Shown: piece after piece, positions 1-64,000 of the stretch
How the letters are laid out: each line of letters opens with the position of its first letter
Position numbering within the stretch: the first letter of the stretch is position 1
Translations under genes and position numbers: made by a program
Assembly (NCBI GenBank): GCA_016758965.1
Contig: JAEPRB010000142.1
Location: forward strand, 42,487 to 106,486
Direction of reading: 5' to 3'
From: Circinella minor
Lineage: Eukaryota; Mucoromycota; Mucoromycetes; Mucorales; Lichtheimiaceae
DNA length: 64,000 bases
Notes under the pieces: generated by a model
The model's database searches: none
Seen by the model: only the letters and a program-made list of their open reading frames with translations
What the model was told of the DNA's origin: nothing

Positions 1-55
1 AAAAACATGCGCAAAAAGTTTTAGAGATGTATAAAATAGAAAAAATTAAACTTAC

Positions 56-386
56 CCTTAGCGTTGTTGGTGGTAGGGACAAAAGTGACCATGGAGAAAA
101 GCTTTTCCTTGGCATCTTCATCGTCATTACGCTTACGGGCAATACGGACACGAATGCGGTGAGGGACGTTACGAACACCACGAGCCCACAAAGCCTTGTT
201 CAAACTGGGGTCGACACGGACATCTTGAGTACCCATGGCCTTAGTGGCAAACTCCTTGATAGCCTTAACGGCATGGGGAGTCTTCTTCTTGAAAGAACGA
301 CCGTGAACCAACTTGTGAAGATGGATGGTGTATTCACGGGTGACAACGTCAGAAAGAGTCGAACGCTTTTGGGTGGACTTGGCCAT
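56..386 (-). CDS. RPL31: 60S ribosomal protein L31 (eL31), 5' exon, partial
   Basis: Component of the large cytosolic ribosomal subunit. The exon encodes about 110 residues with the family landmarks: [13 protein letters not shown] near the N-terminus, [16 protein letters not shown], the segment around [21 protein letters not shown], and EDAKEKLFS. Only the last dozen or so residues are missing. The start at 386 was chosen because it gives [13 protein letters not shown]; an upstream in-frame ATG at 398 would add four atypical residues. A GTAAGT donor at 55-50 follows codons for NAKG, exactly where eL31 continues with a conserved KGLQT-type tail, so the last exon lies beyond the left window edge. 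Identity is certain; only the C-terminus is unseen. Confidence 0.96.
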
Positions 387-536
387 TCTAAAATTCAAAT
401 GGATGAATGGATTAATATAATGGATGGATGGATGGATTAAATGGATTGTTTCTATCGATTATTTTTTTCCATGTAGTTTAACTTACTCGAACTATGGATC
501 AAAGAGGGAGTTGTTTCAGCAACAGATTCAAAATTT

Positions 537-545
537 CCTTTTATA
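537..545 (-). promoter_or_regulatory. TATA box of RPL31
   Basis: TATAAAAGG on the minus strand, about 150 bases upstream of the RPL31 start codon and followed by a purine-rich (GA) stretch. The position suits a TATA element with a 5' leader; there is no transcript evidence. Confidence 0.45.
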
Positions 546-2095
546 CTCCCTCTCTCCCAACCCTCAGCACTGCTTGGATTTTTTTTTTTTTAATTTTACC
601 CCGCCCCGATCATTTTTTTTTTTTTGCTTTAATAGCTTTCTTACCACATAATACACACCATAAAAAAAATGATGGATAACCCACTTTCAACTTTGTTCTT
701 AAAGAAAAAAAAAAACCACATTAAACTTTATAATTCAATAATAATGTTTTTTTAAAAGTCACTCTTGTTTGTTTTATATTAAACAAATGGTGGGTAAATG
801 TATATGTAAATTTTTAGTTTAATCCAAGTGAACTTGTATATACGACAACATACCGTTACAGTAATATATGTTAATATTTAAAAGAATGACAACAAAACAA
901 TCCATGAATTCGTTGGTAATAAAATAGATAACATGCGATATATAACATATTTCATATACGTATCAAAAAATATATATAGGTTGTTTGGTTGGATAGGTTG
1001 CTTTCTAGATCTTAATACGTACGTAGTTATCTATAAATTATTTGACAAGTTTCTATGTTGAATACATCCATAAAAAGATTTGGTAACGGGGTTATTTTTT
1101 TTTTTTTTGCTCAATTGAAAGTTTTTACGTAATATGATTATAGGGCTTATGACTTTTGTTTAAATATATTATGTGAATCATTTATATTTTAATGCACCCA
1201 TTGAGAATGTCATTTGGTTTGAAAGTATGTCAAAATATAGATTTAGATAATACAAATGTTTCGTTTTTTCTAAAAGAATTGGACAGAAATCATGTTTATA
1301 TATATATATATATTGATTATTTTTACATGGATACTTTTCAATGTATAATGTCTATCTTTTAATCAGTCCTACCCCATTAATTATTCACTAACTTATATTT
1401 CTGTTATAGAGTAGTCCTATTGAAATTATACCAACAATTTCAAAAAGAGAAAAATTGACAACTCTGTTAATACGAGTGATTCAATAAGACTACATTCATA
1501 AAATCATATGTATTAGTAACCCAATGATCGGTCTATAAGTATATAGAAAGAATGACCTACTAGACCTCTTTTCTTTTACTTCAAAAAAAAAAAGGGAGTA
1601 TAATAAATCTTTCAATTAGGTCTAAATAATAATGAAAGACACCCTACCCCCCCACCCAAAAAAAAAAGTTTAAATACGTACGTACGACATAATAATAATT
1701 GTCTAGAACTTACAATTATTTTATTCTTTCAATCACTTCTTTGTTCTATTTATATAAACTTTTTGAACCTTTAAATAATAAATCCAAACTTAGAAATAGA
1801 AGAACCAAAAAAAAGCACTGAGTTTTTTTTTTTTTTTTTTAACTCATGTATTTACGTATCACTTAACAGACTATTAATAATATAAAAATAAATAATTTTT
1901 CTTGTTCGGTTATATGATAATCATTCAGTCTTTTCTTTAGATTCAAATAATAGATTCAATTTATAACAAAAATAAAGTACATTTGTCATATTTCAAATGA
2001 TACATGTTAAAAGAAATAGGTTTAATAGATACTCTTTTATTAAAATTTTTCATATACATCCTTAAAAAAAAAAAAAACTACCTCCTCCCCTTCCA

Positions 2096-2126
<31 letters not shown>

Positions 2127-3230
2127 TTAATTACATACTATGTATCGTGTTGAGTCTAATTAAAAAAGTCCAAGTTATCCATTGTGAATTTCAAGATATT
2201 GAGTTTCGAAAACCGTTTCAATTAGGTAGATAATTAATAAACACACTAGTATTCATTCAATCTTGAATAGAAGATAGGAAATTATAATGTAACGCGTATT
2301 TGATATTGTTGAATGATGATAGACTTTATTCTTTTTATTAATAAAATGGTATTTTTACTATACATCTTAAAACCTGTCAATTATACAAGAAAATGAATTT
2401 AGTTGTTATTTTATTATATAAAATTATTTAGGTCTAATTATACGTAGTAAAACTACCTAATTTTTTTTTTCTTCACCTTATTTCAAATTTTTACTATATA
2501 GAATTGTGTCAAGCATTTTCCATGAAATGGCTTTTACAAAATTATTAATCATTATGTCTAATTGACTTCAAACATGAAATTCAAATGACACACTACATAC
2601 ATATTACATACATACATACACTTGAGATTAATTTTATATACGTAATGCAAGTACGTAATACGTATGCATAAAAGAAAATAGAATATTATAGAAACCCAAT
2701 TTTATTTTTCATTTTTTGGTGCCAAGAAAAAAAAGGGTAAGTATACGTAGATGCTGCATAATAATAATAAAAAAAGAGTTCCAGATCTCCATTCATGCAG
2801 TTTTGTTTATAGTTACACAAACAAACAAACACACATAACATTCAAGCTAATTATGTCCGTTATTTTATAATATTCCCATTTTGTTTTATTGTTGTTTAAA
2901 TATGAAAATAGTTACACATTTTTTTAAAAAAAAAGTTCAACTTGCATTTTCGGCGTTAATCTCTTGATAAAGAAAAAAGATTTCACTGTTAGAAACTGAC
3001 TATTAAATAAACGTATATATCCCGGTTGTTATGTTAGTAAACCTGAAGTATATATTACCTCATGATTAAATGTTTTGGGGAAGGATGACTATAGAAATGA
3101 GGAGAGAGAGAATGAGATGATGAAAGAAATAAAAAAAAAAAAACGTTCAACATAAAGTCAAAACATGTATATATAATTCATCAAATACAGTAAATTTTTT
3201 TTCAACTGACAACTCATCTAAATCTTGAAT

Positions 3231-3264
<34 letters not shown>

Positions 3265-3685
3265 GTACACATGCATTCGAAAAAATATATAGAATAGAAA
3301 AAAATCAACTTTTTTTCACAGACATATATAAAAGTAGTAGACCAGTGGGTGAAGACAAAAGATGAGATGCAGATCAAAAAAAAAAAAAAAGTGTTTGACA
3401 TTTTTTTATTTATTTGTATGGATTACAGAAAATAGATTACGTTAACTTGATTTATTGCATATGTTTACGTACAAAAGAATAATGTAAATATTATTATTTA
3501 AATAATACGTAACAGGGATTTATTTAAGATTATGAAAAAGGAGTTCAAAAAAAAAAAAAAAGAGAGAGAGGGATTAATAACAAGTTTTACGTACCACTTA
3601 TTCACTACGTACGTACGTATAGAAATGTAGATAAAAGATAATACCTATAATTGGAATTAAATATAAAGATTCTTTACGTAGATGT
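546..3685. other. Long AT-rich intergenic region without a recognisable gene
   Basis: Dominated by A/T homopolymers, (TA)n near 1298-1313, an (ACT)n microsatellite at about 3232-3262 and several TACGTA words (for example around 1677-1686 and 3604-3619). ORFs here are only low-complexity translations. I see no gene. Confidence 0.6.
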
Positions 3686-3765
3686 TGGGAGGAGGTGGGG
3701 GAGGTTGGGGGAGGGGGTGGGGAGAGAGAAGGATTATATTTTAAAGAGAGGGGAGGGGAGGGGGG
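3686..3765 (+). promoter_or_regulatory. G-rich, G-quadruplex-capable tract upstream of the secreted protein gene
   Basis: Two clusters of G runs (GGTGGGGGAGGTTGGGG-type at 3694-3722 and GGGGAGGGGAGGGGG at about 3750-3765) lie just upstream of a TATA box at 3792. Such dense G runs are rare in this AT-rich window. A promoter role is inferred from position only. Confidence 0.4.
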
Positions 3766-3791
3766 TTATTATGCATTTTGATTGAAAGAAC

Positions 3792-3800
3792 TATAAAAGG
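3792..3800 (+). promoter_or_regulatory. TATA box of the secreted Cys/Ser-rich protein gene
   Basis: TATAAAAGG lies 98 bases before the start codon at 3890. The three small secreted-peptide genes further right have TATA boxes at the same distance (97-105 bases). Confidence 0.55.
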
Positions 3801-3889
3801 GTATACAGTTATTTTGTTTTTTCTTTTTCTTCTTTCTTCTTTACTACTATAACCCTTTTTTTTTTATATTACTTTAACCATTCAATAGT

Positions 3890-4734
3890 ATGAAAAGTTT
3901 TAATTTGATTGCCACCGCTACTATTGTACTTGTCGCCACCGTTGGTATGACCAATGCAGGATGTTCTTGTCAAGCTTCTGATTATGATTGTTTAAGTAAA
4001 TGTGGTAAGTAAATAATTTTTATTTTCATGTCAAAATCTTTTTTTTTTTTTTTTTTTGCCTTCTTTTTTTACAAATAATTCCTATCATTGACGACAAACA
4101 CTCATTTGCTTTTATTTTTTTAGTGGATACAACACATAGTTGTTTATCAAGTTGTAAAGATAATGATTGTTATTCAAGTTGTATTGGTCAAAATTGGCCT
4201 GGTGCAATAGATGAACAAAACCAAAGTGTGGGTGCTTCAGCTGATCCTACACAATCAGCATCTGAAAATCCTACAGCTTCTTCTTCTACAGCAACAACAA
4301 CAACAGAGAGTGTAGATGTTTCTGCATCACCTACCTCTGTTGTTTCAAATACAGTATCTTCAGCATCTGAAAGTATTTCTGATATATCTGCATCGGTTCC
4401 CGTTTCAGCATCTTCTTCTCTTGCATCAAATTCTGTCAGTAATAGTCTTGCTTCAGTTTCATCTTTTTCTGCACCTTCTTCACTTCCTAGCTCTTGTAAG
4501 TTTTTTTTTTTATTTATATATCTCTAATCAATGTAAAAAAAAAAGATACATAGAACTAAAAATAATTTGTTTTTTTTAGCTCTTTTACCATCAGCACTTA
4601 GTAGTAGTAGTAGTATTCATCCTCCTCAAGCATCTCAAACGGCACCTTCTAGTTTTGGTGTTACAAACATGGTTTCTAAAGAATGGATAGCTATTGCTAT
4701 CACCATGGTGCTTGTAACTATGGGTAATATATAG
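3890..4734 (+). CDS. Secreted Cys/Ser-rich protein, probable GPI-anchored cell-surface protein
   Basis: Three exons (3890-4004, 4124-4495, 4580-4734) join in frame to 213 residues. Residues 1-24 form a signal peptide (hydrophobic IATATIVLVATVGM). The next ~35 residues are cysteine-rich, with a CxC pair followed by three CxxxC pairs (CLSKC, CLSSC, CYSSC). Then follow about 110 residues of Ser/Thr/Ala/Pro, typical of O-glycosylated wall stalks. The C-terminus ends in a short hydrophobic stretch (WIAIAITMVLVTMG) directly at the stop, as in GPI-anchor signals. The first and second introns have GTAAGT donors. I infer a wall or plasma-membrane surface protein. The family is not recognised: it is not a clear CFEM or WSC domain. 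Confidence 0.8.
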
Positions 4735-6229
4735 TCCCAATAAATTCCCAACCCCAAAGGTTTCTTACTATCTCACTATTTCTCTTTACATTTAAACTTG
4801 TCTACTTTTTTTTTTTTTCTTTTCCTTCAAAGGAAAACATGATTATTTTACTTTAAAAATTAATTTCCCTTTCACAAAAAAAAAAAAGATATATATATAT
4901 TCCCCGTTTTTTTTTTTTTCATGTTTTTTTTTTTCGTTGTACGTAATAAAAAAAAAAAAGAAGAAATGTTTTATGATAATAATAATTAAAAATTGGAACT
5001 TTATCTCTGGTCCGTTATATAACCAAAAAAAAAAAAAAAGTGGGTTGATAGGTTATGTGCAGTAAGAAAGAAAGAAAGAAATTATTTACTCCTTATCATC
5101 GTTAAGAGAAAAGAGGGAGCTTATAGAAGATAGATGATGATTCAAGTTGAATAAAAAATATTACTTACGTACCATTCATTCCTCTCTCCCGGATGGGCCG
5201 CATGACTTTTTCTTTAAAAAAAAAAATGGTCAATAATGGACACATGTACGTATAAATTATTGGGAAAGAAAAACCACTTTTATGTGTAAAATAATATTGA
5301 GTTACTACGTGATTACTCGATTGAGTTTTTTTTTTTTTTTTAGTTTACAAAAGTCATTGAAAGAGTCAACATATCTATTGTAGGAGTGAGGAGGAAAAGG
5401 AGAAATATATAATCTTACAAGTACATAAAGAAGAAAAGGGAAAAAAAAAACTTTTTTTTTTAATCTAGTTTAAGTAGAAAACTCTCATCTTCCATAGGTT
5501 TGGGTTTTTATTACGTACGTATGTATTGTTTATTAGAAATCGGGAGGTATGTTGAGTTAGTAGAGAGTTGGAAACAACAGTTGGGGTACTCCCAAATATA
5601 AAGTCAAACTTTTCCTCCCCCCGGGTTCTTTTTGTGTATAAGTAAGAAAAAGTAGTACAGAAAATAGTAGTATTAGTAACCTTTTTTTGCCTCGGATGAT
5701 CTGGTGAGCAAGGAGAGGAAGTGAATTGTAACTTTTACTACGTATATATATCATCTCGTACGTAGTATAGTTATTAATATGATAAGCAAAGAAGATGGAT
5801 AAATATATATTAAGAAAAAAGTGATTTATTATTTATTAAATATATACTTCTAGTGTTTATTAAATTCACTCAGTGAATTAATGAACAACTATTATCTGGG
5901 GGGGGGTTGATATTACGTATGAAAAAAAAAATGCAAAGTGATACGTAATGAATATCCAATGGATAAACTGCAAGCAATATATATATATATATATATATAA
6001 TTGACTTTAAGATATTAAGAAAAAAAAAAAAAGGGAAAAATGATTTAAAAATAAAGGAGGATGGGTTGTTGAATATAAAAGATAAATATTACTACGGGAA
6101 AGGGCAAAAAAAAAAAAAAGAAAGAAAGATATATAAACGGATAGGTCGTACGTACGTACGTAGGGAGTAAAAAAAAAAAAAAAAGGATTAACGTATCATT
6201 TTTAATAACAAAAAATGATCTCTTTTTTT
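4735..6229. other. Intergenic region, low complexity
   Basis: Homopolymers, (TA)n at about 5980-5999, several TACGTA runs (the longest at about 6148-6162, four overlapping units) and a short G run near 5900. No gene seen. Confidence 0.6.
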
Positions 6230-7652: not shown

Positions 7653-8289
7653 TTTATAATAATACCATCAAACTAAAAGGATGAAATGAATGGAAAGGGT
7701 ATATATTATATTCTTAAAGGAATGGAATTGGGGTATTGATTTTTTAAAAAAAATAATAATAATAATAATAAAAAGAAAAAAAAAAGTGGAAAACAAAACC
7801 CTTTTTATATTATTGATTTAAAAAAAAAGACTCCTTAAAAATCCTTTTCATTTATTATTTCGCCAAAATATCACTTTGCTTCTCCTTTACTCTCCCAAAA
7901 ACACTTTCTTAACCCTCACTTTTTCAGTGTATACAACACAAAAGACTTCTCCCCCCCTCTCTCTTCTCCATTTTTCTTAATATTCTGTACGTATAATAAT
8001 CAATTTCATATGAATAACATGATAATAATAATACAAGCCTTTTCCTTTACCCCCCTTTGATTACTTTTATTATTTATTTATTGTTTTACGTAAATAATAA
8101 TAATACGAATAGAAAAGAGAAGAATATATTTTTATTTTTTTATTTTTTTTTGGTTACAAGGATCCCCATGGACACGTCTGGAAAGAAGTGTTTTTATTAA
8201 AAAAAAGTTGGAGGAAAAAAATAAAAATAAAAAAATCCAAGTATAAAAAACTCCAACCCTCAATGGATAGTAGTTTAATTGTTTTTTTT
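7653..8289. other. SHO1 upstream region / RPS29 downstream region
   Basis: AT-rich with (AAT)n and a pyrimidine-rich stretch at about 7870-7970. It serves as 5' flank of SHO1 and 3' flank of RPS29, both on the minus strand. No further gene seen. Confidence 0.55.
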
Positions 8290-8789
8290 TTAACGGTACT
8301 AATTTAATTATTATACCATCAATTAGTTTTTTTTTTCATTACTATTATTATTATTATTATAACTCTTTACTCCCCACCCCCCATTAAAACTATATTTTAC
8401 CTTGTGGAAACCAATGTCATTGGCATATTCACGGAAACATTGACGGCAAATGTTCAAGTTGTACTTGCGAATCAAAGCAGCACGGTGAGCACAAACGCGA
8501 CTATATTATTTTTCAATTCACATCCCCATTTATATATATATATATAATTTTTTTTTTAAAAAAAAATATAAAAATAAAACATAAATGTATAAGCCATTCA
8601 AGATTTTTTTTTTTTTTTTTTTTTCCGTTGATTGGGTTTTGTGTAGGATAGATTGGAATTGAGGTTGGATGGTGTTTGTTTGTTTTGGTTCTTTTTTTTT
8701 TTTTTTTTTAATTAAAAAAAAACATACCATTGACGAGAGCCTTTGCCAAATTGGCGAGGACGAGAGTTCCAGACGTTATCGTGGGCCAT
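8290..8789 (-). CDS. RPS29: 40S ribosomal protein S29 (uS14)
   Basis: Small cytosolic ribosomal subunit protein. Three exons: 8728-8789, 8401-8500 and 8290-8298. They give 56 residues, exactly the usual length. It begins [18 protein letters not shown] and carries the zinc-binding cysteines as CRVC and CRQC, followed by [12 protein letters not shown]. The first intron splits the codon of the first zinc Cys (TG/T). The last exon is nine bases (TAC CGT TAA) and supplies the conserved YR C-terminus. Without it the protein would run into the intron, which supports this tiny exon. Confidence 0.94.
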
Positions 8790-9110: not shown

Positions 9111-11771
9111 CTACAATTTAGCCATCGTTTTGGTTATTGTTGTATTCTTTTCTTCTTCTTCTTCTTTAGCCATTTCTCTAACACGTCTTCTTAATATCTT
9201 GCCACTAGGACTTTTAGGAATCATATCAAGAAAACGAACACCTCCACGTAATTTTTTATAACTTGTTACATTTTTAGCTACATGATCCATAATAAGTTTT
9301 GAAAGAGTTCCATCTATGATAGATGTTTGTTGAATATGAGGAGCTGGTACAATATAAGCTCTTGGATATTCTGTAGCTTCATCTGAATGATATACACCAA
9401 TGACACAACAATCATTGACTTCAGGTATACTAAGTAATAATGATTCAAGTTCGGCTGGTGCAACTATATATATAAAACATAAATCGGATTTTGTTTTACT
9501 ATTTAAAATACGGTAATTCCCAATCGAATTTTTTTTTTTTTTATTTTTACCTTGAAAACCTTTCACTTTAATTAATTCTTTTAATCGATCCATGACAAAA
9601 AATTCTTGTTTTATACTATCAAATTTAATAACATCTCCTGTTCTTAACCATCCTCCTTTAACAAATGTTTTTGCATTTGCTTCCGGATTATTATAATAAC
9701 CCTGTACAGTATACATATATATATTTTTTTGAATTTATTTAGTTAATAAACGAAAGAATACAATTGATACGTATTTTTTTTTAAAAAAAAAAAAAACTAT
9801 ACCTTCATAATAGAAGGACCTCTAATTAATATTTCGCCTTCTTGATCATCTCCAAGTTCTTTTATCATTATTTTACGTAGTAAAAAAAAACAAAAAAAAT
9901 CAATCATTTAAAGTAATCATTTATAATATATCAATGACACTTACCATTTCCTTGATCATCTATAATTTTACATTCAACACTAGGACAAACAATACCAACT
10001 GAACCTAAAAAAAAAAAAAAAAAAGAAAGAACCATTTATTTTTTTTAACTACGTACGTACTCAATCAAATTATATATAGGGAGAGCCAAAAAAAAAGAAT
10101 TATCTTACCAATGGCAGTACCATCATATCCTGATTGTACAACAGCTAAATAAATAAATAAAAGAGTTAAATAGGGAGATATATACGTACGTACGTAGTAT
10201 ATAAATTCTCATCATCTCATTACAAACCACTTGTAGTTTCTGTCATTCCATAACTATATTACAAATATATATATATCTTGTTAATATGTAACATAGTGAA
10301 AGAAATATAGATATAATAAATAAAAATAAACATACGATTGAATTAAATAACCTGGAATTCTTGCTAATAAATTATCTGTATGTTCTTTACCAAGAGGAGC
10401 AGCACCACATTGAATAATACGAACAGAAGATAAATCATATTTTAAAACCAATGGATCTTTGGAAAGTTGAACAGCTATAATAATACGTAGAGATATCAAT
10501 AAGTTTTGATTTATTTACATTTACTGTAACGTACGTACCCGAAAAAAAAAATGAATATCATTACTTTACCTACAGGTGGAACAATACTAAGAAGAGTAAT
10601 ACGATGTTTTTGAATTAATTCCAAATAAATTTTTAAATCAAATCGTGGAATAATCACCACTGGTAATAATTTATAAAAGGCATTAAAACAAAGTACAGTT
10701 AATCCATAAATATGATATAAAGGTAAAAAACATAACGATTTATCATGTTCATTATGAGCATGTTGGTCCGTTTCCATAGTAATTAAAGCTTGAGCAATAA
10801 AATTTTGATGTGTTAACATGACTCCCTATAATAATAATAACATTATTGTTATTTACATTTAAGTTATAAAATAAAAAAAAAATAAAAAAAAAATAGTACG
10901 TAGAGGAAAGAAGGATGTGTCATCATCACATAACCAGGTTTTAAATAGGAATACTTGCCTTTGCTAATCCAGTAGTTCCTGATGAATAACAAATAAAAGC
11001 AATATCTTCTTTTGAATTTAATCCTTGAATAGGATATTCAATAGGTTCAAAATGAGATAATGACATGATGGAATAAACAGATTTAAATTGTTTATAATCT
11101 TTTTTTCCATACATAAAAATCTTGTTTTCAGGAATACCCACTTGATGACATACTTTAAGTAATATAGGTAATAATTCAGGAACAGTGACAAGTGCTTTAG
11201 CACCAGAATTAGAGATTTGATGTAGGAATTCCGCTATACGTAAAAAATAATCCGGGGTAAAAAAAAAAAACTCATGAATATTTTTTTTGTGTGTGTGGGA
11301 AAATAGAGAAAGTACGTAGTTGTTTTACTACAACTATTACTTACCTTCTGTATACATTGGGTTACTACGTACGTATAAAATAATAATAATTTAGTACGTA
11401 TATACAAGTCAATCTATATATATATAGACTACAAAAAAATAAAACAACCAAACGTACCCAGGTGTCACAGTACATTTTGCAGCCAAAAGTGAAAGATAGA
11501 CAACAATATGATCATATTGATTTGGAGCAAAAGAAGCTACAATATCTCCTTTTTTTAATCCAACATGATGAACCCATCCACTCGCCATACGACTGGATAA
11601 ATCACGTATTTGATCATGCGTTAAAAAATCATTGGTATATCCATCAATAACTACTTTACGATCTTTAGGATATTTAGTATTAAATTTATTTGGTTTAAAA
11701 AGAAACGTATATAAATCCAATTCAGGTAAAGGTTCAATGGAATTATATTTAGTTGATTTATAGATAACCAT
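9111..11771 (-). CDS. Peroxisomal 4-coumarate-CoA-ligase-like acyl-CoA synthetase
   Basis: ATP-dependent carboxylate-CoA ligase of the ANL superfamily: it adenylates a carboxylic acid and transfers it to CoA. Eleven exons (11458-11771, 11345-11364, 10959-11233, 10570-10825, 10336-10474, 10228-10253, 10109-10144, 9945-10004, 9803-9858, 9551-9701, 9111-9463) join in frame to 561 residues, normal for 4CL-like enzymes. Visible motifs: the AMP-binding P-loop YSSGTTGLAKGVMLTHQN (~195-212), CGAAPLGKE, YGMTETT, GWLRTGDV, the hinge DRLKELIKVKGFQVAPAELE and the catalytic lysine region PKSPSGKILRR. The last residues, AKL, are a PTS1-type peroxisomal signal. Intron 3 starts with GC instead of GT; exon 2 is only 20 bases. 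The substrate (fatty, aromatic or jasmonate-like acid) cannot be told from the sequence. Confidence 0.93.
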
Positions 11772-20930: not shown

Positions 20931-22394
20931 CTTTGCCATCCGCTTAAGATGATTCTATGTTTTCATGTATCATAATAATCAAGTAAATTATTACGTAGGT
21001 CAAAGTTTAGTACTTTTTTTTTATTTATTGTTTTCACCCAAAATATTCGAATCCTCCTTTCCCCAAGCATCAAAAAATAAAATTAACCTCTTGTACTAAC
21101 TTTTTTTTTTTTTTTTTTTTTTCGAATTGCTTCGATAGGATCGATTTTTATTATTAGTGTGAACGCGTTTTTGTCACCTTCGCACCTTCATGGGTTGAGT
21201 CCCCCCCCCTTCGCTTTGTGTTAAACTCTATGAAAGTTACGCTTTGGGCGAGACTCGTTATTTTTCAATGTACAACAAAAGGTGTCACCTTCAACATTAT
21301 TTTGAGTCACATTGAACGATAATGAAAAAGTCGTGCGATCCTGCGGTCGTGTCATGTTCTCTCCGTTTTAACTTGACCATTCCATTCCGGTGTCAAGCTT
21401 AACGTCAATGTTCAAGAAAAGTTGGGGGGGGTAATGTAGCCGAAAATGTCTTGTAAATAAAATGTGTTTCTTTTTTTTCATAAAATTATTTTTCATTAAC
21501 ATAATAGTTTTCATAAAGAAAGAGTAGAATATGAGTGGTGAGGGAAAAAAGTAAGGTCATTTTATATATATCCATCGCTGACTTTAAAAAAATATAGGGG
21601 CAATATTAAATAAGAATTTTAAGTTTGGGCAAAAAGTGTAGTTTTTTGCATAAATAATATTTTATAGGCTATGAAGTTAACCCCCCCGCCACAATGCTTT
21701 TTGTTTTTATTTTAGTAGTTTTGAATGATAATACCTTCCAACTTACATGAATCTAGCTAGAAATGATCAAGAATATTTGTGATCGACAGTGATATTGCTT
21801 ATTTACTTGAAACATGATGCCTGCGCGATATGATAAGTTAAACATCTCTGGCTTTCAATTAGTTACAAGATTCGATGGTACGTAATCTTAGAACAGTATA
21901 TCATTTATGTACTTTTTTAATATAGCTTTCATAGATTTCGTACAGTGTATATGGAGAAAAATTATCCAAGTGTTTCTTAAGTTAGCTGTACTTTATGTTG
22001 GACCATTAGTCGTACGTACGTAGCATGATATCCATCATAATATCATGTATAAAACCAAAGAACACTGTTGTTGTCAATGTAATTCTTTTAGCCTTGGACC
22101 CTTGATTCATACCCAATCCAAAACACCGTACGTACATATTCATTTTATTGTGAAAGAACCTTAACATCCTTTTTTTTTTTTTCCATGAAGAATATAATAA
22201 ACATACGGAAGCAAATGAGTCATCAACATTCTTCTTCTTTGCAACACATAAAAGATTTCATTACTTCTTTTTTTTTTTTTTTTTACGTATCATACGTAAA
22301 AAGATCATTTTGAGTATTCTTTTCTTTTTTTTTTTTATTTAACGCATTGTCTTTCTATATTAATTCAAAGAAAGTATACTTTATTTCAGAATAA
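20931..22394. other. Mixed intergenic DNA with a GC-richer stretch
   Basis: About 21,125-21,420 is clearly GC-richer than its flanks and has many CpG words, suggesting an imported or element-derived segment, but I could not translate it to a known protein. The rest is AT-rich with TACGTA words (for example 22,012-22,022). Confidence 0.4.
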
Positions 22395-28762: not shown

Positions 28763-29067
28763 TATTTATTCTTTTTTTTTATTTATTTATTTTTTAGATC
28801 ACTTGTTGGATAAATTAGATTATTCTCTTCCTCTTATTATTAAATGATTATAATCAACATGAAAAAAAATAATAATCCGAGTTGGTACGTACAAATAATA
28901 TATTAAGAAATACATAAAAGCAAGAGTAAATTATTATTATTATTATTCAAAAGTTACCTGTTTGTTTTATGGTATATGTATGTATATACGTATATGTATA
29001 AGGGAAAAATATAAAGTTGAACTTTTTTTTTTCTTTTATGTATATAGAGTCGTCTCTTTACTATTTA

Positions 29068-29191
29068 CAGTTGAACCCCGTTTTTTGCACAGGCGAAGGA
29101 TTTGGCTCGAAAGTGGTGCAAAAAAGTGGGGTCAAAAACATAGTGGGATTTTGACCAAAAAGAGAAGTGTGCAAAAAACGGGGTTCAACTG
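29068..29191. mobile_element. 124-bp MITE with perfect 24-bp terminal inverted repeats
   Basis: Left end CAGTTGAACCCCGTTTTTTG (29068 on) is mirrored by its exact reverse complement ending at 29191; the perfect repeat covers 24 bases per side. TA dinucleotides flank both ends (29066-29067, 29192-29193), the target duplication of Tc1/mariner/pogo-like elements. It is absent from the matching place in duplication copy B. No coding capacity. Confidence 0.85.
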
Positions 29192-29610
29192 TATATATTT
29201 CTAATGATAGCAAAGCGTATACATACATTTATATAATGCGTGAGTTGTTACTACGTACTTTTCATGTTTGCTTATTTTATTACGTACTATAGAAACAAAT
29301 TATTATTATCGTCAAGTTGTAGCTGTTACTAGTTATATAATTGCTAGAGTAACTAATAAAATATAACAAAATTGGTTTTTTATTTATTTATCCTTTGACT
29401 ATATATTATTCTCAAAAAATAAAAAAAACTGCAAGTAATAATGACAAAATGAAAATTATAAAGATATGCTAATATATTGAAGTCATGGAAAGAGGGAATA
29501 ATATTGAATATGAAAACGGAACTTTTTTTTTTTTTGTTACGTATCGTTGTTTTCTTTATCATTCCCTATTATTATGCGAAAAAGAGAAAGTTCCACTGCA
29601 TAATTACAGT

Positions 29611-32965: not shown

Positions 32966-33617
32966 TTATGTTTATGAGAAAAAGAAAAGATTTACCACCT
33001 GCATAAATTTTTGTTTATAACTTGTTAAAAAAGCAATGCATCATTTTAGTAACTTTAGGTATCAGTGATATTGGATTGAAAAAAAATGTGTAGGTGTGTT
33101 TTTGAGAAATATATGTGGCTCGTAATATAATAATGATACTGATAATATTGGAAGAAGATGGATTAAATAATAATAATGTATTGTTGTTGATTAAAAAAAG
33201 ATGAAATTAGTTTCCTGATTTTTTTTTTTACTATTATTATGTATTTCTCATGTCTTACGTATTTATTTTTTAAATCATTGTTTACGGATTGCCAATGACA
33301 ACAGAGATAAACATTATACATAAATGAAATCAAAAAGAGACTTTTTTTTTTGTGATTGAATTTTAAAAAAAAAATGCATTAGTAAAAATTAGGAAAAAAC
33401 CAAACATACATGCACACTTTTTCCTTTTTTTTTTCTTTAACAGATACCGTTATTATTACTTGATAATAAAAAAAAAACGGTTATAATAATTTATCAAGTA
33501 GGGAATGTATGTAGTAATTCAAAAAAAGTAAAATGATTTTTTTTTGTGTAAATAACATATTGAAAGAAACCAAGAAGTTGATTTTATTTGAATGAATTGT
33601 ATATGTAATTACTTGTA
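32966..33617. other. AT-rich intergenic DNA
   Basis: Homopolymers and short imperfect palindromes (for example around 33,445-33,500). No gene. Confidence 0.5.
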
Positions 33618-34377
33618 CTGTCACCGCTCGATATAACGATAGGGTTTTGAGGTTCAAGACATATTAAGCGGGAAAATATCATAACGATATCCGATACGTA
33701 CGTAGGGTTTTAGAAAAAATATCGTTATATGGAGCAGACAAATAATATCTTTATCTCTTAAAAAAGAAAATAATACTAGTTTGTTGGGCATTTTTTTATG
33801 TTCTACTTACTTTAGTTTTTAAACAGTTTTGTCAAGTCCTAATAAATTTGAATATCAAATTTATCTTCAGGCACCGTCTTTTCCGAAAAAAAGAAAGCAA
33901 GTGATATCCTGCTTCTGCCTCTTTCTTATGAAAATCAGATTTGCTTTTTACCAACTATGCAAGTCCAACTTGTTTTTGTCATTTTGCATGGGTTTATAAA
34001 CAATAGACAGTTTCTGATGCTTATCATAATATGATGGTCGCATTTTTTTTCTTATATAGGGGACCAGCATTAATTATGTGTGACCATGTGGTTGCAATTC
34101 AATTAAAATTAATGAGACAAGGAATATTTAATAAAGAAAACTGTACAAAGAAAAAGAAATGTTTTATTTTTATAGTTTATTTACAGTATAAATGATATAA
34201 TGTGCTAGAGTTTTCTTCTTTTTGCAAAACATATTAGATACATGTGAGGTCAAATACATATGGATAGGATTTTACTCGATCATTGTAACTCAGATCAAGA
34301 ATTCGTTATAACGATTATTCGACATAACGATACCCTTTTGATCTTACAGGGGGTATCGTTATAGCGAGCAGTGACAG
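33618..34377. mobile_element. 760-bp non-autonomous TA-flanked element (CTGTCAC family)
   Basis: Left end CTGTCACCGCTCGATATAAC and right end ATAGCGAGCAGTGACAG are imperfect inverted repeats of about 25 bases containing ATAACGATA. TA flanks both sides (33616-33617, 34378-34379). An extra internal inverted ATAACGATA motif lies near each end. No ORF of note, so it must rely on a transposase elsewhere. Confidence 0.75.
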
Positions 34378-35234
34378 TATAACAACAACAACAAAAAATC
34401 AACATTCATATGTTTCTTTTTAAAGAAAGTGTAACCATTTTTAGACTCTTGTAAATAATACTGTAGCAATAGATATAATTAGTATCATATATATATTTAC
34501 TTTTATTGCCTCTTTTTTTTTAAGAAAAGAAGATAATTTACTGATAGCTGTAGTATGTAAAGAGCCGAACCCATTTATGTATACTATTGAATGCAGCTCA
34601 CATGATAAATATATATATATTTTTTACTGTTTTACAAAAAGTTATTTTGAGGGAAACACTTTGTTTCTCAGTGATTTATTTCAAAAGTGGGAGGAGGAGG
34701 GGGGATGTAGGAACTTTATCATATGGAGACTACTCTTTTTCAATGCAAGGCAATAGGTGAAGAGGCACATATTACGTGAAACACGAAAAGAAAAAAAAAA
34801 GAAAAGGAATAATATTAGTTCATCAAATATTATTATTGACATCAATATTATAATTCTACGTAGCAAGAAATTTTTTTCTCAGCGATTGTCAAAATATTAA
34901 CAATATGAGAGGATTTATATATCTTATAGAAATAAACATACACGCTTTTTATTGGGTACTTGATCCTAATAAATCTTTATGTGTCATGATGTTTGGTATT
35001 TGTTTTTAATATTAATTTTTTTTTATTACAGCATTTATATGTAAAATATCAAACTAATTTAGTAATGGTCTATAATAAATTTAATAAATATTCAACATTT
35101 TTTTCTTTATACGTAAGTAGGTATTGTAGAAGATGTTTTATTATTATTGGGGTATGTACGTGTAGAGTGTAAGTAATTGCTTATACTAAGAAGGTAAGGG
35201 ACGGGGAAAGACTAATCAATATAATAAATAGATA
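34378..35234. other. AT-rich intergenic DNA
   Basis: No gene or clear repeat recognised. Confidence 0.5.
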
Positions 35235-36004
35235 CAGTGATTATTCGTTAAACTGGTACTCAATATATGTGGGCGAGGATTTGTACCGGTTTTAGCGAAT
35301 TAAAACGCAACTGGTACTAATATGTAGAATATAATGGAAGAATAACTATAATTGAATTAAGCTACAGGTATAAGATAAAAAAAATGGATAGTTCATGTAA
35401 TGTAGCTAACTGCTTAATATAGCTTTACTACTATGAGCTAATCTTTTAGCGATAAAAATGATAATTATGTATTCATCAAATAGTGATAATTAACAGAAGA
35501 TTGTATTAATAATGAATTCACTACAAAGTGTGTATTAATATAGACCATGGTTAACAGTTGAATAAATGAGTAAAAGTAAATTGTATCAGCAACATAATAT
35601 TAATTACATATTCAATGATGGTAATAAACAAGTACATGACAAAGTTGAAACGACGTACGTAGGTAGATGAGGAAGAAGAAAAAAAGCGCCCATGTGAAGT
35701 TGGGAAAAACGAGGCACTGTTATCAACAAGATGTTTCATAGCTTTCTCTTGACGACAAGAATGATTTGTGTATTTTTAATTGCTATGAAAACAAAGTACG
35801 TGACCAACTGAAAACAAAGGAATGAGCTGAGATGACGTTAAAGGAAGGCTGTATTACAGATTTTACCAATAAAAAGACTAATATTATAATATATAAAATA
35901 AAATAATACTATTATAAGCCCGGTAAATATTTAGGGAAAGCTCACAAGATACTAGTTTAGCGAAATGCCCATTTAACGAGTACCGGTTTAACGAATAATT
36001 ACTT
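35235..36004. mobile_element. 770-bp non-autonomous TA-flanked element (GTTTAACGA family), full length
   Basis: Left end CAGTGATTATTCGTTAAACT and right end TTTAACGAATAATTACTT are inverted repeats of ~27 bases, with subterminal repeats of GTACCGGTTT and TTTAGCGAA. TA flanks both ends (35233-35234, 36005-36006). No coding capacity. A truncated copy is at 27345-27981 and a solo end at 46106-46195. Confidence 0.75.
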
Positions 36005-36594
36005 TACAATAAAATTATCATAACCACCAAATATAAAAAAAAAGTTTAGTAACCAGACTATTGATGTCACTGTTACTATATTACTACTTTTACCGACCAC
36101 CAACCCTAACCTCCAACATAATCCCACCCTCCTTTCCAAAATCTTGTATCATAAACTTAAACTGTAGGTATGTAACAAGCAATTTGTAAGGACAAATTTT
36201 TCGTAGCAAATAAAAAAAAAAGGGAAATGGTGTTTTAAAACAAAACAATATACAGGCAGATAGAATCATTAAAGAAAAGCAATACCATTATGTACGTATG
36301 ATAAAAATAAAGTTTATAATGAAAGAACGATTTATTATTATAATTATCATAAAGAGAGATAATTTTATATGATTAATTATAGTATGGTATTTCTATAAGC
36401 TATTTCAAATTCTCTTTGCCATTTTTACTAGGAGAAATATATAATCAACGGTCGGAAGAAAAATATTGGCTTATTTAAACAAGAGCTATACAACAGTGAA
36501 GAATAAGTAAGTTAATTATATGCCACACAAATTATTAATGTCAAAAATTTTTAATTACTATCTGTAGGTACAAAAAGAAAGAACGTACCGACAA

Positions 36595-39900: not shown

Positions 39901-40516
39901 GACTTTCTCTTCTACATTGCTCCTTCCTTTGTAACAGTAGGATTTTTTCATGAGTACGTAACAATGAAACTATTAATTTCTCAACTCCAAAAATTATATC
40001 TTCAATATATATGCGTATCAAATTCATAACGTAGACAGTTTTCTTTTTAAGTAATTATTTTGTTTCCCATGTTCTACCATTGAATGTTATGTCCATTATT
40101 AACATTATTAAAAAAAATCTCAAAACATTTATTACGTAAAGCAACAATAATATTATAAATTCTTAAAATAGAATACAGTATATACACATGTAACATCGAC
40201 CAAATACTGTATACAAACAGATTATTACTACTTATATACTACTACTACTGCTACGTACTACTCTACAATTTTTGAATATTCTTGGAGCAACTTTTATAGA
40301 GTACGTAATAAAAAAAAGCACTTAAAAACCAAATGAAATATCTGCAACTCTCTATCAAAAAGAGTAATTGTGTCATCACAAATAATATATATTAGGTATT
40401 CCTATTTGAATTGTATAATTTGAAATACAAACTTCTTTTTTACGTACTAATAAAAGAAACAGTCAGAACGTCAAAAACAATAGGATGATCATATAGCTCT
40501 ATTATTGTTATTATTA
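36969..40516. other. Long AT-rich gene-poor region with one solo MITE end
   Basis: At 37899-37926 the sequence CAGTCAACCCCCCCGGATTT, followed by TGCACAC, resembles the left end of the MITE at 29068. Otherwise only homopolymers, TACGTA words (near 38,212, 38,313 and 38,808) and short chance ORFs. Confidence 0.45.
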
Positions 40517-40772
40517 CAGGATTTTGAATACATTTCCGGACACAACCCACATTTTTTTTCGCTTATAAGAGCAATTTGTTTTGCTTATGAGGTCCAAGAA
40601 ATTCACTTTAGAAGATTAGAGATTTATACAAATGATAGAGGAAGTTTTTCGCGATTGATATCAATTTTTTTTTGCTACACCTCTTTTATGGAATTAACCA
40701 AGTGCTCAAAAGCAACAACCATCATAAGCGGAATAATTGAAAGTTGTGTCCGGAAATTAATTCAAAATCCTG
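40517..40772. mobile_element. 256-bp TA-flanked inverted-repeat element (CAGGATTTTG family), copy 1
   Basis: Left end CAGGATTTTGAATACATTTC then CGGACACAACCC; right end is the near-perfect reverse complement finishing CAAAATCCTG. TA flanks both ends. It contains the TTCGCTTATAAG motif shared with copy 2 at 62224-62592. The 107-codon ORF inside is not a recognisable protein. Confidence 0.75.
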
Positions 40773-41220
40773 TATTATTATTATTTTTATTAACGATTTA
40801 TGCATATAAAACATTAATGCATCATTAATACGTATCATTATAAGAACTGAGAGAATAATAAAAATAAGAAGTACCCATTTTTTTTAATATTAAAACTACT
40901 ACGTACGTAGATTAAATAAGGTAATAAAAGGGAAAAGAGGGATGGTACACCACCTGTATTATATTAAGTTCTGTGATTACATTCTAACGAGGATATGCTA
41001 AATGAGTTCAATTGCTTTACTGTATACTTGAGACATAACCCATCATTCATAACAAATGCCTACGACGAATCTCATTTGTGCTTCTTGGTATTAATAGCTT
41101 TTTTTTGTAGCGAAAAAAAGGATTACGTATTAATTATCAAAATGAAAAGCATATCATATATACACAACTGTGGTAGGATTTCAGCATTCTTTTTCATTCA
41201 AAGCGCATTACGTATAACAC

Positions 41221-41567: not shown

Positions 41568-42273
41568 CACCACGGCTAAAAAATGCATGGAATTGCTTAA
41601 TTCTCTATGAATATGAATTATGGGTTATGAAATATCATGCTTCTCTATGAATATGCATGAAAAAAAGACAATCATTCATTTTCATGGAAATAAATCCATG
41701 AATCTCTATTACAAAACTTAATGAATCTGAGTGACAATGTATGACTCTGAATGATATATGAATCTGCATAAAATTGAACAAATATCTATGAAAAGATATC
41801 TATGATTATGAATGAAAATGCATGCTTTGTAAATATGAGTGATAATCTACGTATGAAATCGCATACTTATACTTCGTGAAACCATAATCGTTTGACGAGA
41901 AGTAGTATTCCCACGCACTTCTTTTACTACTTTTCTCATTATCTCATATAGTTAATGACCCACAAAAATAAAATTTTATTATTCAAAGTGCCTATCATAA
42001 TATAATAGAACTGGTTTCAACCATGTTATAGCTACGGTATAATGTATATGTTCATAAAGTAAAATATATATTATTCGAAAACTAGGTGCTGAAAATCCAC
42101 GAATCTGCATGAATCTGTATATAAATAGGTAATGGATATGACTGAATATCTATGATTCGGCATAGATCTATGAATCTCCATGAAGTGACACGTTTCATAG
42201 AGATTCATCGCATTAGTGATCATGCAGATCCATGGAAATCCATTCATTTTTATTACTTATTTTAGCCGTGGTG
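41568..42273. mobile_element. 706-bp CACCACGGCTAAAA element, copy 1
   Basis: Begins CACCACGGCTAAAA and ends TTTTAGCCGTGGTG. The interior is filled with short direct and inverted copies of ATGAATCT / CTATGAATATGAAT. Nearly identical to copy 2 at 58583-59284. No ORF, no evident target duplication. Confidence 0.8.
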
Positions 42274-53373: not shown

Positions 53374-54702
53374 TCAGTCGCTCAAGATGACTTTAGCTAG
53401 TGATAATGTTAGTCTTTGTTCCAAATCTTCTGTTTGATTTTCGGAAGTTTGCTCGATAAAGTTTGTATTATCATCAATGTGCCGAAATAAAAGCTTAACT
53501 TCAGAAAAGAAATTTTCTACGTATAGGGTTAAGAAATGGACTGTATCTTGGTAATAGCACTAATTTGTAACCACGTTCAGATACTCTATTTGCAATGTAG
53601 TGTGCAGTATGAATTGGTGCATTGTCACACATAATGTTCCAGCCTTTGTATTTAAGATTCCGGCCATCAAGTTTATCCATGACAAGATTCAAAAATGCAT
53701 AAAAGTCTCGGGATTTTGTTCTTCCTCCTTGGCCAACTTTGTTAATCTTGAGACAAACTTCAACTATATCAGTATATGCTATGCTGTTAGCATTGATCTG
53801 GTACGGGTATACATCTGTGGAACTTTAACGTGAGCTACTTCTCCAGCTGCGGACCATGCATAGTTACGTCTCATGTTCGCCATAACTGATGCTTCATCGA
53901 CAAATACACAATTATGTTGATAATCTAAAATTTTTTGTTTCGATATAGTTCTTGACAAACTGTACTCGAAAGTTTTTGGTATCGTCGTCAGTTCGGCGCT
54001 CTGGATACGGATGTACACGCTTGATTGTCATTCGACATTTGTATACGATATATGTATCGGTATCTTGTTGATACTGCTAATCATATTCCAAATTTTTGAA
54101 AGTATGCGCGCTGGAGTTGGTCCAAAGTAATGGTGTTATTATCTGTCACGCTTTGCAAAAGAAATCTGCTACCATTTTCTGTAATTTTTGATGGCATAAC
54201 TCGTTTATGTTTGATTGGATTTGCTTTTCCTTTTCTAGTTTGGGCTCGTTTTCTATGCTCGTAAATAGTTCTACCTCTTGGTATATTCATCAATGCAGAA
54301 ATTTTTCTGTGCGATCCGCCAGTAGCTTTAAGAACCAATGCCTGTTTCATGATGCCTGGTGAATGATACGTATATTTACCATCCCGATTTTTTTGGCAAA
54401 GGTTTATTAACTTTATTTTTCTGTGATTGGACCGAAACTGTTTCTGTTGCAGCAGCTACCGCGATAGTATCCGGTGCAATAGACCGTAATTGGTACATAT
54501 CGTCTTCGTCATTTGACATCTCATCATCACCATCACCATCCGAAATACTGCTGCTTTCACTATCAGAATCATCTGTATCACTAATACTATCGTTTTCTTG
54601 GACTAAGTGAGCAGTTTCTGCAGAGAACGAAAACGAAAATTGACTTGACTCGTGATCAATATTCTCTTTATTAACAAAGTCAATTGATTCAATAATGTCC
54701 AT
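53374..54702 (-). pseudogene. IS630/Tc1/mariner-type DDE transposase, degenerate
   Basis: Cut-and-paste transposase remnant. In minus-strand order: an acidic Ser/Asp/Glu-rich leader (54376-54702), a helix-turn-helix region (54081-54350; ATGGSHRKISALMNIPRGRT), a linker with IKRVHPYPERRTDDDTKNF (frame-shifted), the first catalytic Asp in CVFVDEASVMANMRRNYAW, the second in IMCDNAPIHTAHYIANRV, and LLPRYSPFLNPI. The third acid should follow as NPIE; instead a 4-base CGTA insertion at 53518-53523 shifts the frame. Skipping it restores ENFFSEVKLLFRHID and a frame to the stop at 53374. At least two further shifts separate the ORFs. The element is dead; its terminal repeats were not identified. Confidence 0.8.
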
Positions 54703-58582: not shown

Positions 58583-59284
58583 CACCACGGCTAAAAATTG
58601 CATGCAATTACCTAATTCTCTATGAATATGAATTTATAGGTTATGAAATGCCATGCTTCTCTATGAATATGCATGAAAAAAGACAATCATTCATTTTCAT
58701 GGAAATAAATCCATGAATCTCTATTACAAATCTTAATGAATCTGAGTGACAATGTATAACTTTGAATGATATATGAATCTGCATAAAATTGAACAAATAT
58801 CTATGAAAAGATATCTATGAATATGAATGAAAGTGCATCCTTTGTAAATATGAGTGATAATCTATGAAGTCGCATACTTATACTTCGTGAAACCATAATC
58901 GTTTGACAAGAAGTAGTATTCCCACGCACTTCTTTTACTACTTTTCTCATTATCTCATATAGTTAATGACTCACAAAAATAAAATTTTATTATTCAAAGT
59001 GCCTATCATAATATAATAGAAGTGGTTTCAACCATGTTATAGCTAAAGTATAATGTATATGTTCATAAAGTAAAATATATATTATTTGAAAACTAGGTGC
59101 TGAAAATCCACGAATCTGCATGAATCTGTATATAAATAGGTAATAGATATGACTGAATATCTATGATTCTGCATAGATCTATAAATCTCCATGAAGTGAC
59201 ACGTTTCATAGAGATTCATGACATTAGTGATCATGCAGATCCATGGAAATCCATTCATTTTTATTACTCATTTTAGCCGTGGTG
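58583..59284. mobile_element. 702-bp CACCACGGCTAAAA element, copy 2
   Basis: Same ends (CACCACGGCTAAAA ... TTTTAGCCGTGGTG) and nearly the same interior as 41568-42273. The clearest length difference is a 4-base CGTA present only in copy 1 (41848-41853). High similarity implies recent movement or duplication. Confidence 0.8.
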
Positions 59285-60950: not shown

Positions 60951-62223
60951 TAGAGCTTATTAGGGATTGAGTTAGAAGATTTTGACAATGTATAAAAGAC
61001 AGTTTAAAAAAAAGCTACTTTGTCTTAAGAAGGATTTTATTATACACTCATATTTCTCTTTATATATATATTTATATGACTTATGTTACAGTATGGTAGA
61101 TCGCCATTATTATTGTTCTTATTCGTATTATTTTGCTATTACGTATTTACTTTCTATATATGCTATCATATAGACGACAGATGTACATTTTATTATATAA
61201 ATTTTCATTTGGTGATCATTTTATTTTTGTATTGATTCAGGTGTTACATGGTTTTTAGGTCTCCATTTATATATATATATATACCTAAATAATTGGTGAT
61301 ACCTAATTAAAACTTTTTGCTGATTGAAAGAAATATTGAATATTGCCATTCAATAGATGAAAGAAGTTTGTACAATGCCTTGGACAACGTATAACAAAAT
61401 GTCAAGTTAAAAATCACAAATTTGAAGTACGTACCAAACATATTACTTACTGGGGATCATAAAGAATTAGATGACTTACGTATGTCAACATATATATTAA
61501 ATGATGTTGAAGGAACAACGATTGGTATTTTTTGCTTCTCTATAATAGATTACCAAAACTAGGTTTAATAAGACAGTACGTATTAATTGATAAAAGTAAA
61601 ATATTTAAAATTTGCTCCCGTAATATATAATAATGTAGACACATTCTCACGTCTCCCTTACTTATTTACCACAAACATGGTTATGCTACGTATCATATGC
61701 GCTAGTATTAAAAATCAATTTAAGGAGTTATTTCTACACAAAAGAAATATCATACATTATATACATTATATACATTATATGTATATCATTCCATGGATTA
61801 GATTAATGGCATACGTATGCATGGGAGGAGTTTTCGATAATGACTCAATCAAATAATACATGACCTGAAAATCAAGTTATCATGAACAAAAAAAACAGAA
61901 ATAGAGACTACGTAACAATAAAATGATATTTTATACTTCAGAACGGAATGTATACTAATGATAGGTAGTTTTCCGGTTGAAACTGAATCAATATACCAAC
62001 AGGATCATAGGAATATGATATATATATATATATATATAATTTTGCTTAATTATATGATTCTATACGTTGTTATGATTTAATATTTGGCAAAATGAAAACG
62101 AATTGTTTACGTATGATTCTCTTATAAGAAAAGTTGGCTTGTGAATAAACATGCATAGTGAATGTGTTCTTATTCTACTTGGTGCATGTAAACCAAAAAT
62201 AAATGTTCCCCAGAACATTAATA
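60951..62223. other. AT-rich intergenic DNA
   Basis: (TA)n at about 61,270 and 62,020; several TACGTA words. Short ORFs are chance. No gene. Confidence 0.5.
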
Positions 62224-62592
62224 CATGATTTTGCATTCATTTCCGGACGCAACCCTCAATTTGTTCGCTTATATCATAATGTCAGTTTTTTTTTGTATAT
62301 GATATGTTATATTGTTCGCTTATGATGGAGATATTTTTCGCTTATAATATGCTATACTTTTCGCTTATGATGGCGGTATTTTTCGCAACCAATATCATTT
62401 TTTTTTTGTATTTGCTATACCTGCTTTTATGAGATTAACCAAATATCACCTATTATAAGCGAAAATTAATGCGATCATAATCGAAAAATACTGCCATCAT
62501 AAGTGAAAAATATAGCATATTATAAGCGAACAAAATCACTCTTATAAGCGAACAAATTGAGGGTTGCGTCCGGAAATGAATGCAAAATCCTG
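62224..62592. mobile_element. 369-bp foldback element (CAGGATTTTG family), copy 2
   Basis: Left end CATGATTTTGCATTCATTTC then CGGACGCAACCCTCAATTTG; right end is the near-perfect reverse complement ending CAAAATCCTG. TA flanks both ends. Beyond the ~50-bp terminal repeat, the interior is itself palindromic: several TTCGCTTATAA/TTCGCTTATGATGG motifs on the left face reverse complements on the right, so almost the whole element can fold. Confidence 0.8.
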
Positions 62593-62793
62593 TACTGTAC
62601 ACAATTAAATAGTTTATCGATCAAGAAATACTTATAATAATTTTTGTCTTCTATATCGCACATAGCAAAAAACTTTGCTATAACCCATAATCAAAAGACT
62701 TAAAAATAAAAAGTGGAACTCTCTTTATTTGTATATTTTACAATTCATTTGTCTAATCCCGTCCCATTCTTTTTTATTATTATTCTTCAGTTT

Positions 62794-63004
62794 ATGACAT
62801 CTCAAACAACGACCTTGGAGACTAATTCCTTGGTATGGACTTCCCTTTTTACACATTTTCCCTCCATCCATTCAACTCATTTGACGATATTTTTTACCAA
62901 ATAAAATATTTTTTATTCTTTGTATGTGTGAATAGGAGACGTGTACAAACAAACAGGAAGGAAAAAAAGCATCTAGCTCAGTGGAAAACCAATCCTCAAA
63001 ATAA
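62794..63004 (+). CDS. Possible two-exon small ORF, unknown
   Basis: ATG at 62794 follows a pyrimidine-rich leader. Exon 62794-62832 (MTSQTTTLETNSL) ends at a GTATGG donor; an AATAG acceptor at 62935 opens a second exon 62936-63004 in the same phase, total 35 residues, Ser/Thr/Lys-rich. Splice sites and promoter-like context are acceptable, but length and composition could arise by chance. Confidence 0.2.
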
Positions 63005-63080
63005 TCACATGAAAACTTATTTTCCAAGTACGAGCATATCTCCCGACCCCCTTTTATATAACCAACGGGACCCATTTACC

Positions 63081-63430
63081 ATCGACAAAAGAGAACGTTC
63101 CAGATAATAGGTAAAAAGCCTATTGTGCGGATAACCTTTTTGCTAGCCAACGGAACACACTGACAAAGGAAATCTTTCTAGAAGCTAAGTAACTATTAAA
63201 AGATAATAGAAACTTGTTGGGGATTCCCTTTTATTGCCTACGGTACCCAGGCGTTTTCCATCGACAAAAGAGAACGTTCCAGATAATAGGTAAAAAGCCT
63301 ATTGTGCAGATAACCTTTTTGCTTGCCAACGGAACACACTGACAAAGGAAATCTTTCTAGAAGCTAAGTAACTATTGAAAATAACAGAAACTTGTTAAGA
63401 GATTCCCTGTTATTTGCCTACGGAAACCCA
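63081..63430 (+). repeat. Tandem direct repeat, period 179 bp, about two copies plus a partial
   Basis: ATCGACAAAAGAGAACGTTC starts at 63081 and again at 63260; both units continue through AGCCTATTGTGC and GGAACACACTGACAAAGGAA. A third, decayed start (CATTGCCAAAGG) follows near 63,440. Units are preceded by a short conserved CCTACGG/CCAACGG-ACCC motif. Confidence 0.8.
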
Positions 63431-63440
63431 ATTGCTGGTC

Positions 63441-64000
63441 ATTGCCAAAGGAATCTTAGAAGATTAGGGAAGAGAGATAAAAAACGAATAAGGTAACGTA
63501 CTGCGGCGTATTTAAATGGGAAGGGATTTCAAGTGGCGCTAAATTTATTTGCCCAATGAAAAACAAAAAAAAAAAATCAGCGTCGCGTTTTGTTACTAAG
63601 TACAGTAACATAGTATTTTTTTTTGGGTCACATGTAAAACGTTTGTATGCTATGTTATAAAAGCTCTTTTATCAAACATGGTTGTACACTAAAGAATTTT
63701 TTTTTTGTTTTTATCCCAAACTGTTGGGTTGTTTACCAAATAAAAGTAACTAAATAAAGAAAAGCATTCTTTGGAATATAAACAAGTACTGTAGTTATCT
63801 CGTCAATGCATTTTGGAAATCAATTTTTCAAGATTACGCCTTGTATCACATTTCTGTAATATCCAAAAACTAGTATATCCAAAAACTAGTATATTAAGAT
63901 AGTTGAACCTCAAAATTTCCTTTTTTGTAAGATAGTCTGTCTTTGAATTCATATTTTTTCGCTTTTCATTTGCTCACTGTATTTTAAAGATAATTGTCAG
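63441..64000. other. Right-end intergenic DNA
   Basis: AT-rich with T runs; a short direct repeat ATCCAAAAACTAGTAT at about 63,861-63,893. No gene seen. Confidence 0.5.

Follow-up and report, generated by a model that had tools for sequence, protein, structure and literature searches.

The region considered here, called the window in what follows, is a stretch of 64,000 nt of contig JAEPRB010000142.1 (positions 42,487-106,486) in the Circinella minor assembly, which counts 46.6 Mb in 619 contigs. It carries TA-flanked inverted-repeat elements, a fragment of a Tc1-type transposase and two copies of a repeat designated CACCACGG, and the hexamer TACGTA is scattered along it, singly or in the tandem form (TACG)nTA (Table 1). 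We undertook an analysis of this word in the window, in a genome sample of 20 stretches of 10 kb and in the whole assembly. TA is recurrently converted into TACGTA by the insertion of CGTA, and the word is probably the excision scar of TA-inserting cut-and-paste DNA transposons, which would leave CG between the duplicated TAs.

TACGTA is found 150 times in the window against 12.1 expected under a dinucleotide model, whereas the control words TAGCTA, TGCGCA, TTCGAA, TAGGTA and TACCTA are found 16, 8, 11, 25 and 14 times, respectively. Among the 64 palindromic hexamers its ratio ranks next after that of CGTACG, which itself belongs to the tandem form of TACGTA. A second-order model was used for TANNTA, TACTA/TAGTA and scar-word counts; among the TANNTA words, those composed only of A and T excluded, the one with CG is unique in the window (300 on both strands against 52.0). 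The surplus is also present elsewhere: the sample contains 122 words against 36 expected per strand, and the genome contains 33,262 against 18,837 of the reversed control, while for TAGCTA the corresponding figures are 7,949 and 14,641. With TAGCTA as background, the genomic surplus would be about 25,000 words. The density in the window, 2.3 per kb (about one word per 430 bases), is 3.3 times the genome average of 0.7. An earlier reading of the window made from its letters alone (the sequence-only reading) had described TACGTA as scattered through introns and intergenic DNA and had proposed counting it against such control words; the surplus is confirmed.

The origin of the word is best seen in repeats. 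Family 1, the CACCACGG repeat, gave 44 match rows corresponding to 40 genomic places among the matches listed, with 24.2 kb within the repeat; four further TACGTA words in the flanks were excluded from the count. The 40 aligned copies contain 12 TACGTA words opposite plain TA in sister copies. Eleven four-base insertions occur in this family and ten of them yield TACGTA, the remaining one being GATA; the other two TACGTA words fall in aligner gaps of 6 and 5 bases. At the site in the scarred window copy, none of the 39 other aligned copies has TACGTA, and 36 of them read AATCTATGAA; compared with the nearest sister (L029), the four bases are the sole difference over 120 columns on each side, ungapped columns being considered. 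Family 2, the right-hand part of the CAGGATTTTG miniature inverted-repeat transposable element (MITE), is unrelated to family 1. Its 22 aligned copies (5.1 kb), 20 of which were selected from the genomic places listed for it, contain three words; two are clear four-base insertions, and the third falls in a segment whose length varies. The two families together have 15 TACGTA words in 62 copies where sisters show plain TA, and the sites number at least 13; since two family-1 pairs (L058/L061 and L045/L052) have a common or nearly common site, the independent events number 13 to 15.

Other small insertions near TA are few: one TAGTA (L038), a TAATA common to three related copies, a three-base ATT in L032 and L081, and TAAGTTA in L082. 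Of the 12 words in family 1, 11 belong to the 18 more diverged copies and a single one to the 22 more similar copies, which suggests that scars build up with age. Against these 12 words, the copies of family 1 differ from their consensus at 1,244 bases, a rough ratio because common differences are counted repeatedly. Moreover, in a self-comparison of the sample (36 alignments), two of the four four-base gaps at an identity of at least 80% yield TACGTA. TACGTA thus arises from TA by a derived insertion of CGTA, which has recurred at many sites and in two unrelated repeat families, as the sequence-only reading had proposed; words opposite plain TA in sister copies fit neither a binding site nor an original microsatellite.

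That proposal had been built on seven pairs of paralogous stretches within the window, most of them from two short minus-strand genes with similar flanks about 3 kb apart (28400-28660 and 31530-31700). We aligned each TACGTA stretch to the other copy with and without CGTA. Four pairs hold, three of them listed with their scores in Table 1 and the fourth being the scar in the CACCACGG copy. Removal of CGTA gives no gain at 29281 (score 42 to 40) or at 31347 (56 to 54), and these two fail; the pair placed at 32082-32087 is uninformative, its word starting at 32072 and its score remaining at 26.

The genome contains matching transposases. PF13358 (DDE_3) gives 146 match rows, in which pieces of single genes are counted apart and some lie under the cut-off, and PF03184 (DDE_1) gives 13. 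Elements with inverted ends flanked by TA are common; those of the window, the sample and the transposase loci start with CAGTG, CAGCG, CAGCA, CAGG, CAGTT, CTGTC, CTGTA or CTTGC, and the end word TACAGGATTTT is found 369 times in the genome against 35 reversed. The first two bases of all readable ends are CA or CT and the outermost bases are C and G, so the earlier statement that C and G are the first and last bases of the TA-flanked elements holds for those whose ends are readable. Among the transposase loci examined (L063-L077), a readable TA-flanked end was found at L063, L064, L066, L067, L069, L072, L075 and L077, always starting with CA or CT; no convincing TA-flanked end was found at L065, L068, L070, L071, L073, L074 and L076. 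Two further ends near TA, starting with CC (L007) and AA (L016), were discarded because the similarity runs outward past the TA, which is probably not a target copy. Several Tc1-type transposase matches within a few kb of one another are found on the small contigs C297, C471, C316 and C409, which are perhaps element-rich islands. At one place (G000 C330:11934-13886) the 3' part of the CACCACGG repeat is present twice in facing orientation, with about 1.1 kb between the copies; a larger element may thus have this repeat as its long terminal arm.

Table 1. TACGTA words, tandem runs, repeats and transposon-related features of the window.
Feature	Position	Strand	Remarks
(TACG)3TA run	3606..3619		
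(TACG)3TA run	6149..6162		
(TACG)3TA run	10183..10196		
(TACG)2TA run	22013..22022		
TACGTA against plain TA in the paralogous stretch near 31927	28886..28891		score 40 with, 49 without CGTA
TA-flanked MITE, ends CAGTTGAACCCCG	29066..29193		16/16 end bases
TACGTA against plain TA in the paralogous stretch	29252..29257		score 51 with, 62 without CGTA
TACGTA against plain TA in the paralogous stretch	29538..29543		score 43 with, 48 without CGTA
TA-flanked inverted-repeat element, ends CTGTCACYGCTCG	33616..34379		14/16 end bases alike
(TACG)2TA run	33695..33704		within CTGTC element
Inverted-repeat element, one end TA-CAGTGATTATTCG, other end degraded	35233..36006		arms 84% complementary
TA-flanked MITE, ends CAGGATTTTG	40515..40774		14/16 end bases
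CACCACGG repeat, scarred copy	41568..42273	+	second part to 42273 judged from the other copies
TACGTA, probable scar, in the CACCACGG copy	41848..41853		word missing in 39 other copies
Tc1-type (DDE_3) transposase fragment	53513..53725	-	PF13358, 35.5 bits, cut-off 28.6
CACCACGG repeat, second copy, plain TA at the site	58583..59284	+	95% identity
TA-flanked MITE, CAGGATTTTG group	62222..62594		15/16 end bases; three scars elsewhere in its family

Two marks of an excision footprint are found here: in 15 words of the 62 copies a derived insertion has left a second TA with foreign bases between the two, and the genome gives matches to a suitable transposase superfamily (PF13358, PF03184). Since TA is doubled around two foreign bases and Tc1-type transposase matches are many, an excision scar is the most likely explanation of TACGTA, and we consider it probable; the agent would be a Tc1/mariner-type transposase, followed by end-joining. 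A transposon would insert at TA and duplicate it, and its excision would leave CG as two additional bases between the copies of TA. How CG arises may be pictured in two ways. In the form that we slightly prefer, and hold only tentatively, a staggered cut would leave a self-complementary two-base CG overhang, re-ligated cleanly to TACGTA; such ends are complementary and give exactly this word, which fits the uniform product. The main alternative of the same class, which we judge rather unlikely, is that ordinary C...G elements leave one base on each side, as had been suggested earlier. In that case mixed scars, TACTA and TAGTA among them, are expected, because C and C cannot pair, and the suggestion is unproven: TACTA/TAGTA is barely raised (1.2-fold outside long open frames under the dinucleotide model; under the second-order model, 1.3-fold for the window and 1.6-fold for the sample), and the traced insertions include a single TAGTA beside 15 TACGTA. 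There is no surplus of TACGCGTA, the product of filling in both overhangs (0 where 0.9 and 2.5 are expected; genome-wide 217, the reversed word 307), a result compatible with clean ligation and equally with the one-base form. Among other scar words, TAC(A/T)GTA exceeds expectation in the window (32 against 10.6; for example at 857, 3261, 34459 and 41018) and less so in the sample (49 against 32.6), so that TACAGTA/TACTGTA perhaps represents a second class of scar. The word TACTAGTA is raised in sample stretches L001-L003 and L005-L024 (20 against 4.3) and there is none in the window.

Several results weigh against excision as the source of TACGTA. The search for a CG-ended donor covered about 300 kb, less than 1% of the genome, and no CG-starting element was recognised in it: exact 11-base ends gave none, and no family is present among the best 12 pairs of repeated single ends. 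At a threshold of at least 12 of 16 bases, 20 of 5,646 CG end pairs pass, and this rate (35 per 10,000) is the highest of the 16 dinucleotides, followed by TA with 25; none of the six best pairs (at most 13 of 16) is element-like, and five begin on TACGTA, which itself matches four bases. The sequence-only reading had called for an element sitting exactly at a TACGTA site; among the family-1 places listed with both halves, 0 of 36 in this one assembly are split by a resident element, a result that lowers the probability of excision without excluding it. Extra family-1 pieces at C6, C9 and C27 were taken as partial duplicates or an assembly gap. CAG-ended elements may leave TAC(A/T)GTA and not TACGTA; this word, expected from them, is found in 0 of the 15 traced events, and its genomic counts (5,827 + 5,911) are little above those of the reversed control (5,555 + 5,370). 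Finally, most scars described for related elements are mixed. A highly mobile and rarely resident element with a CG-overhang cut may have written the approximately 25,000 scars in 46.6 Mb, a doubtful reading whose stronger form replaces the transposon by an unknown enzyme adding CG at TA.

The lack of a CG-ended donor in the 300 kb and of a resident element in the listed copies, together with the very uniform product, would also suit a process other than transposition that inserts CG and duplicates TA, for example a TA nuclease with a two-base stagger and specific repair. To our knowledge no such process has been described, and transposon scars usually consist of a TA doubled around foreign bases; we regard this explanation as improbable.

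The tandem forms could suggest that (TACG)n is a microsatellite grown by slippage. The window contains 131 runs, of which 115 are single, 13 double and 3 triple. Random re-insertion at local rates would give about 5 runs of at least two units, whereas 16 are counted, roughly threefold more, and none of 300 simulations reached 16; in the genome TACGTACGTACGTA occurs 141 times against 6 reversed. Against this stand the 115 single runs and the 15 traced events, which begin at a bare TA with no CG present to copy. Slippage is thus contradicted for the first unit, and as a general explanation it has only a slight chance of being right; it may nevertheless add later units. On excision, (TACG)nTA would result from later insertions at the TA of a scar, possibly with slippage. 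Re-insertion into the scar was also the idea of the sequence-only reading; the excess of multi-unit runs over random re-insertion implies that scars are preferred targets, that TAs vary in their attraction, or that slippage adds units. The tandem runs noted earlier are indeed present, with coordinates that were off by 1 to 5 bases (corrected in Table 1).

TACGTA is also a palindrome with an ACGT core, of the type bound by bZIP proteins, and its distribution is not random, as might be expected of a protein-binding site under selection. With stop-to-stop frames of at least 180 codons standing in for gene models, its ratio in the sample is 1.7-fold in long open frames and 3.9-fold elsewhere, in agreement with the earlier description of the words as scattered through introns and intergenic DNA; in the window it is 12.8-fold outside such frames, and the 2 words against 0.5 expected within them (2.7 kb) are too few for a judgement. 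In the window the words are clustered, the index of dispersion per kb being 2.34 against 1.03 for random TA (99th percentile 1.49). They are dense at 1-11400, 28000-34000 and 38000-42000 and nearly missing at 11.4-17.8 kb and 42.8-50.5 kb, where base composition is similar. Such clustering could come from local hopping or open chromatin. A site of this kind would hardly occur about every 430 bases, nor appear freshly inside repeats whose sisters are without it, and no fixed place was seen among sister repeat copies, promoter positions being unmapped; the binding-site explanation, already contradicted for the bulk of the words, is very improbable. The least credible possibility, that TACGTA is ancestral, its surplus due to base composition, and that sisters lost CGTA by slippage between TAs, an ordinary event in TANNTA, is already contradicted by a surplus exceeding the composition models and by the independent losses it would require in nearly all 40 copies at each site.

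Apart from these features, the window encodes a pentatricopeptide protein (24143-25366), to which proteins of Circinella umbellata, Phascolomyces articulosus and Zychaea mexicana are 90%, 77% and 64% identical, respectively, and contains a tandem duplication (43114-43446 and 43529-43860) of 98% identity.

If TACGTA is an excision scar, past insertions and excisions would stay countable in the genome, in an almost uniform record that outlasts the elements themselves, making otherwise invisible transposon traffic readable. Transposon rates, hot spots and local hopping would then be measurable from one assembly and a sister strain, and the same events would constitute a recurrent frameshifting mutation of four bases.

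Among known elements, Minos, of the Tc1 group, has ends that begin with CG after the TA, so that a CG-ended Tc1 element is possible. Its scar has four bases, TACGAGTA/TACTCGTA; the window, where 1.8 such words are expected, contains none, and the sample contains 7 for an expectation of 4.6. More generally, excision of Tc1/mariner and Stowaway elements is described as leaving a few bases of the element's ends next to the TA duplication. Sleeping Beauty likewise leaves TA duplicated around a few terminal bases, as TAC(A/T)GTA, and its scar can be uniform (PMC3432063); there, however, three bases lie between the TAs, whereas here there are two, and its word is absent from the 15 traced events. 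For Stowaway/Osmar, a plant mariner system, TA duplication with 1 to 4 terminal-repeat bases is described, as is re-insertion at an earlier footprint (PMC1925063); several footprints are reported at a single site, in contrast with the one dominant product seen here. Of two other TA elements, Passer (pogo) leaves 0 to 4 bases (PMC9976928) and ZB (Tc1) 0 to 3 (PMC7913693), and these variable lengths are unlike the uniform scar of C. minor. The scars studied here are more uniform than most of the published ones consulted, and a search of titles and abstract openings for TACGTA gave no account of the word as a scar or as a surplus in fungi.

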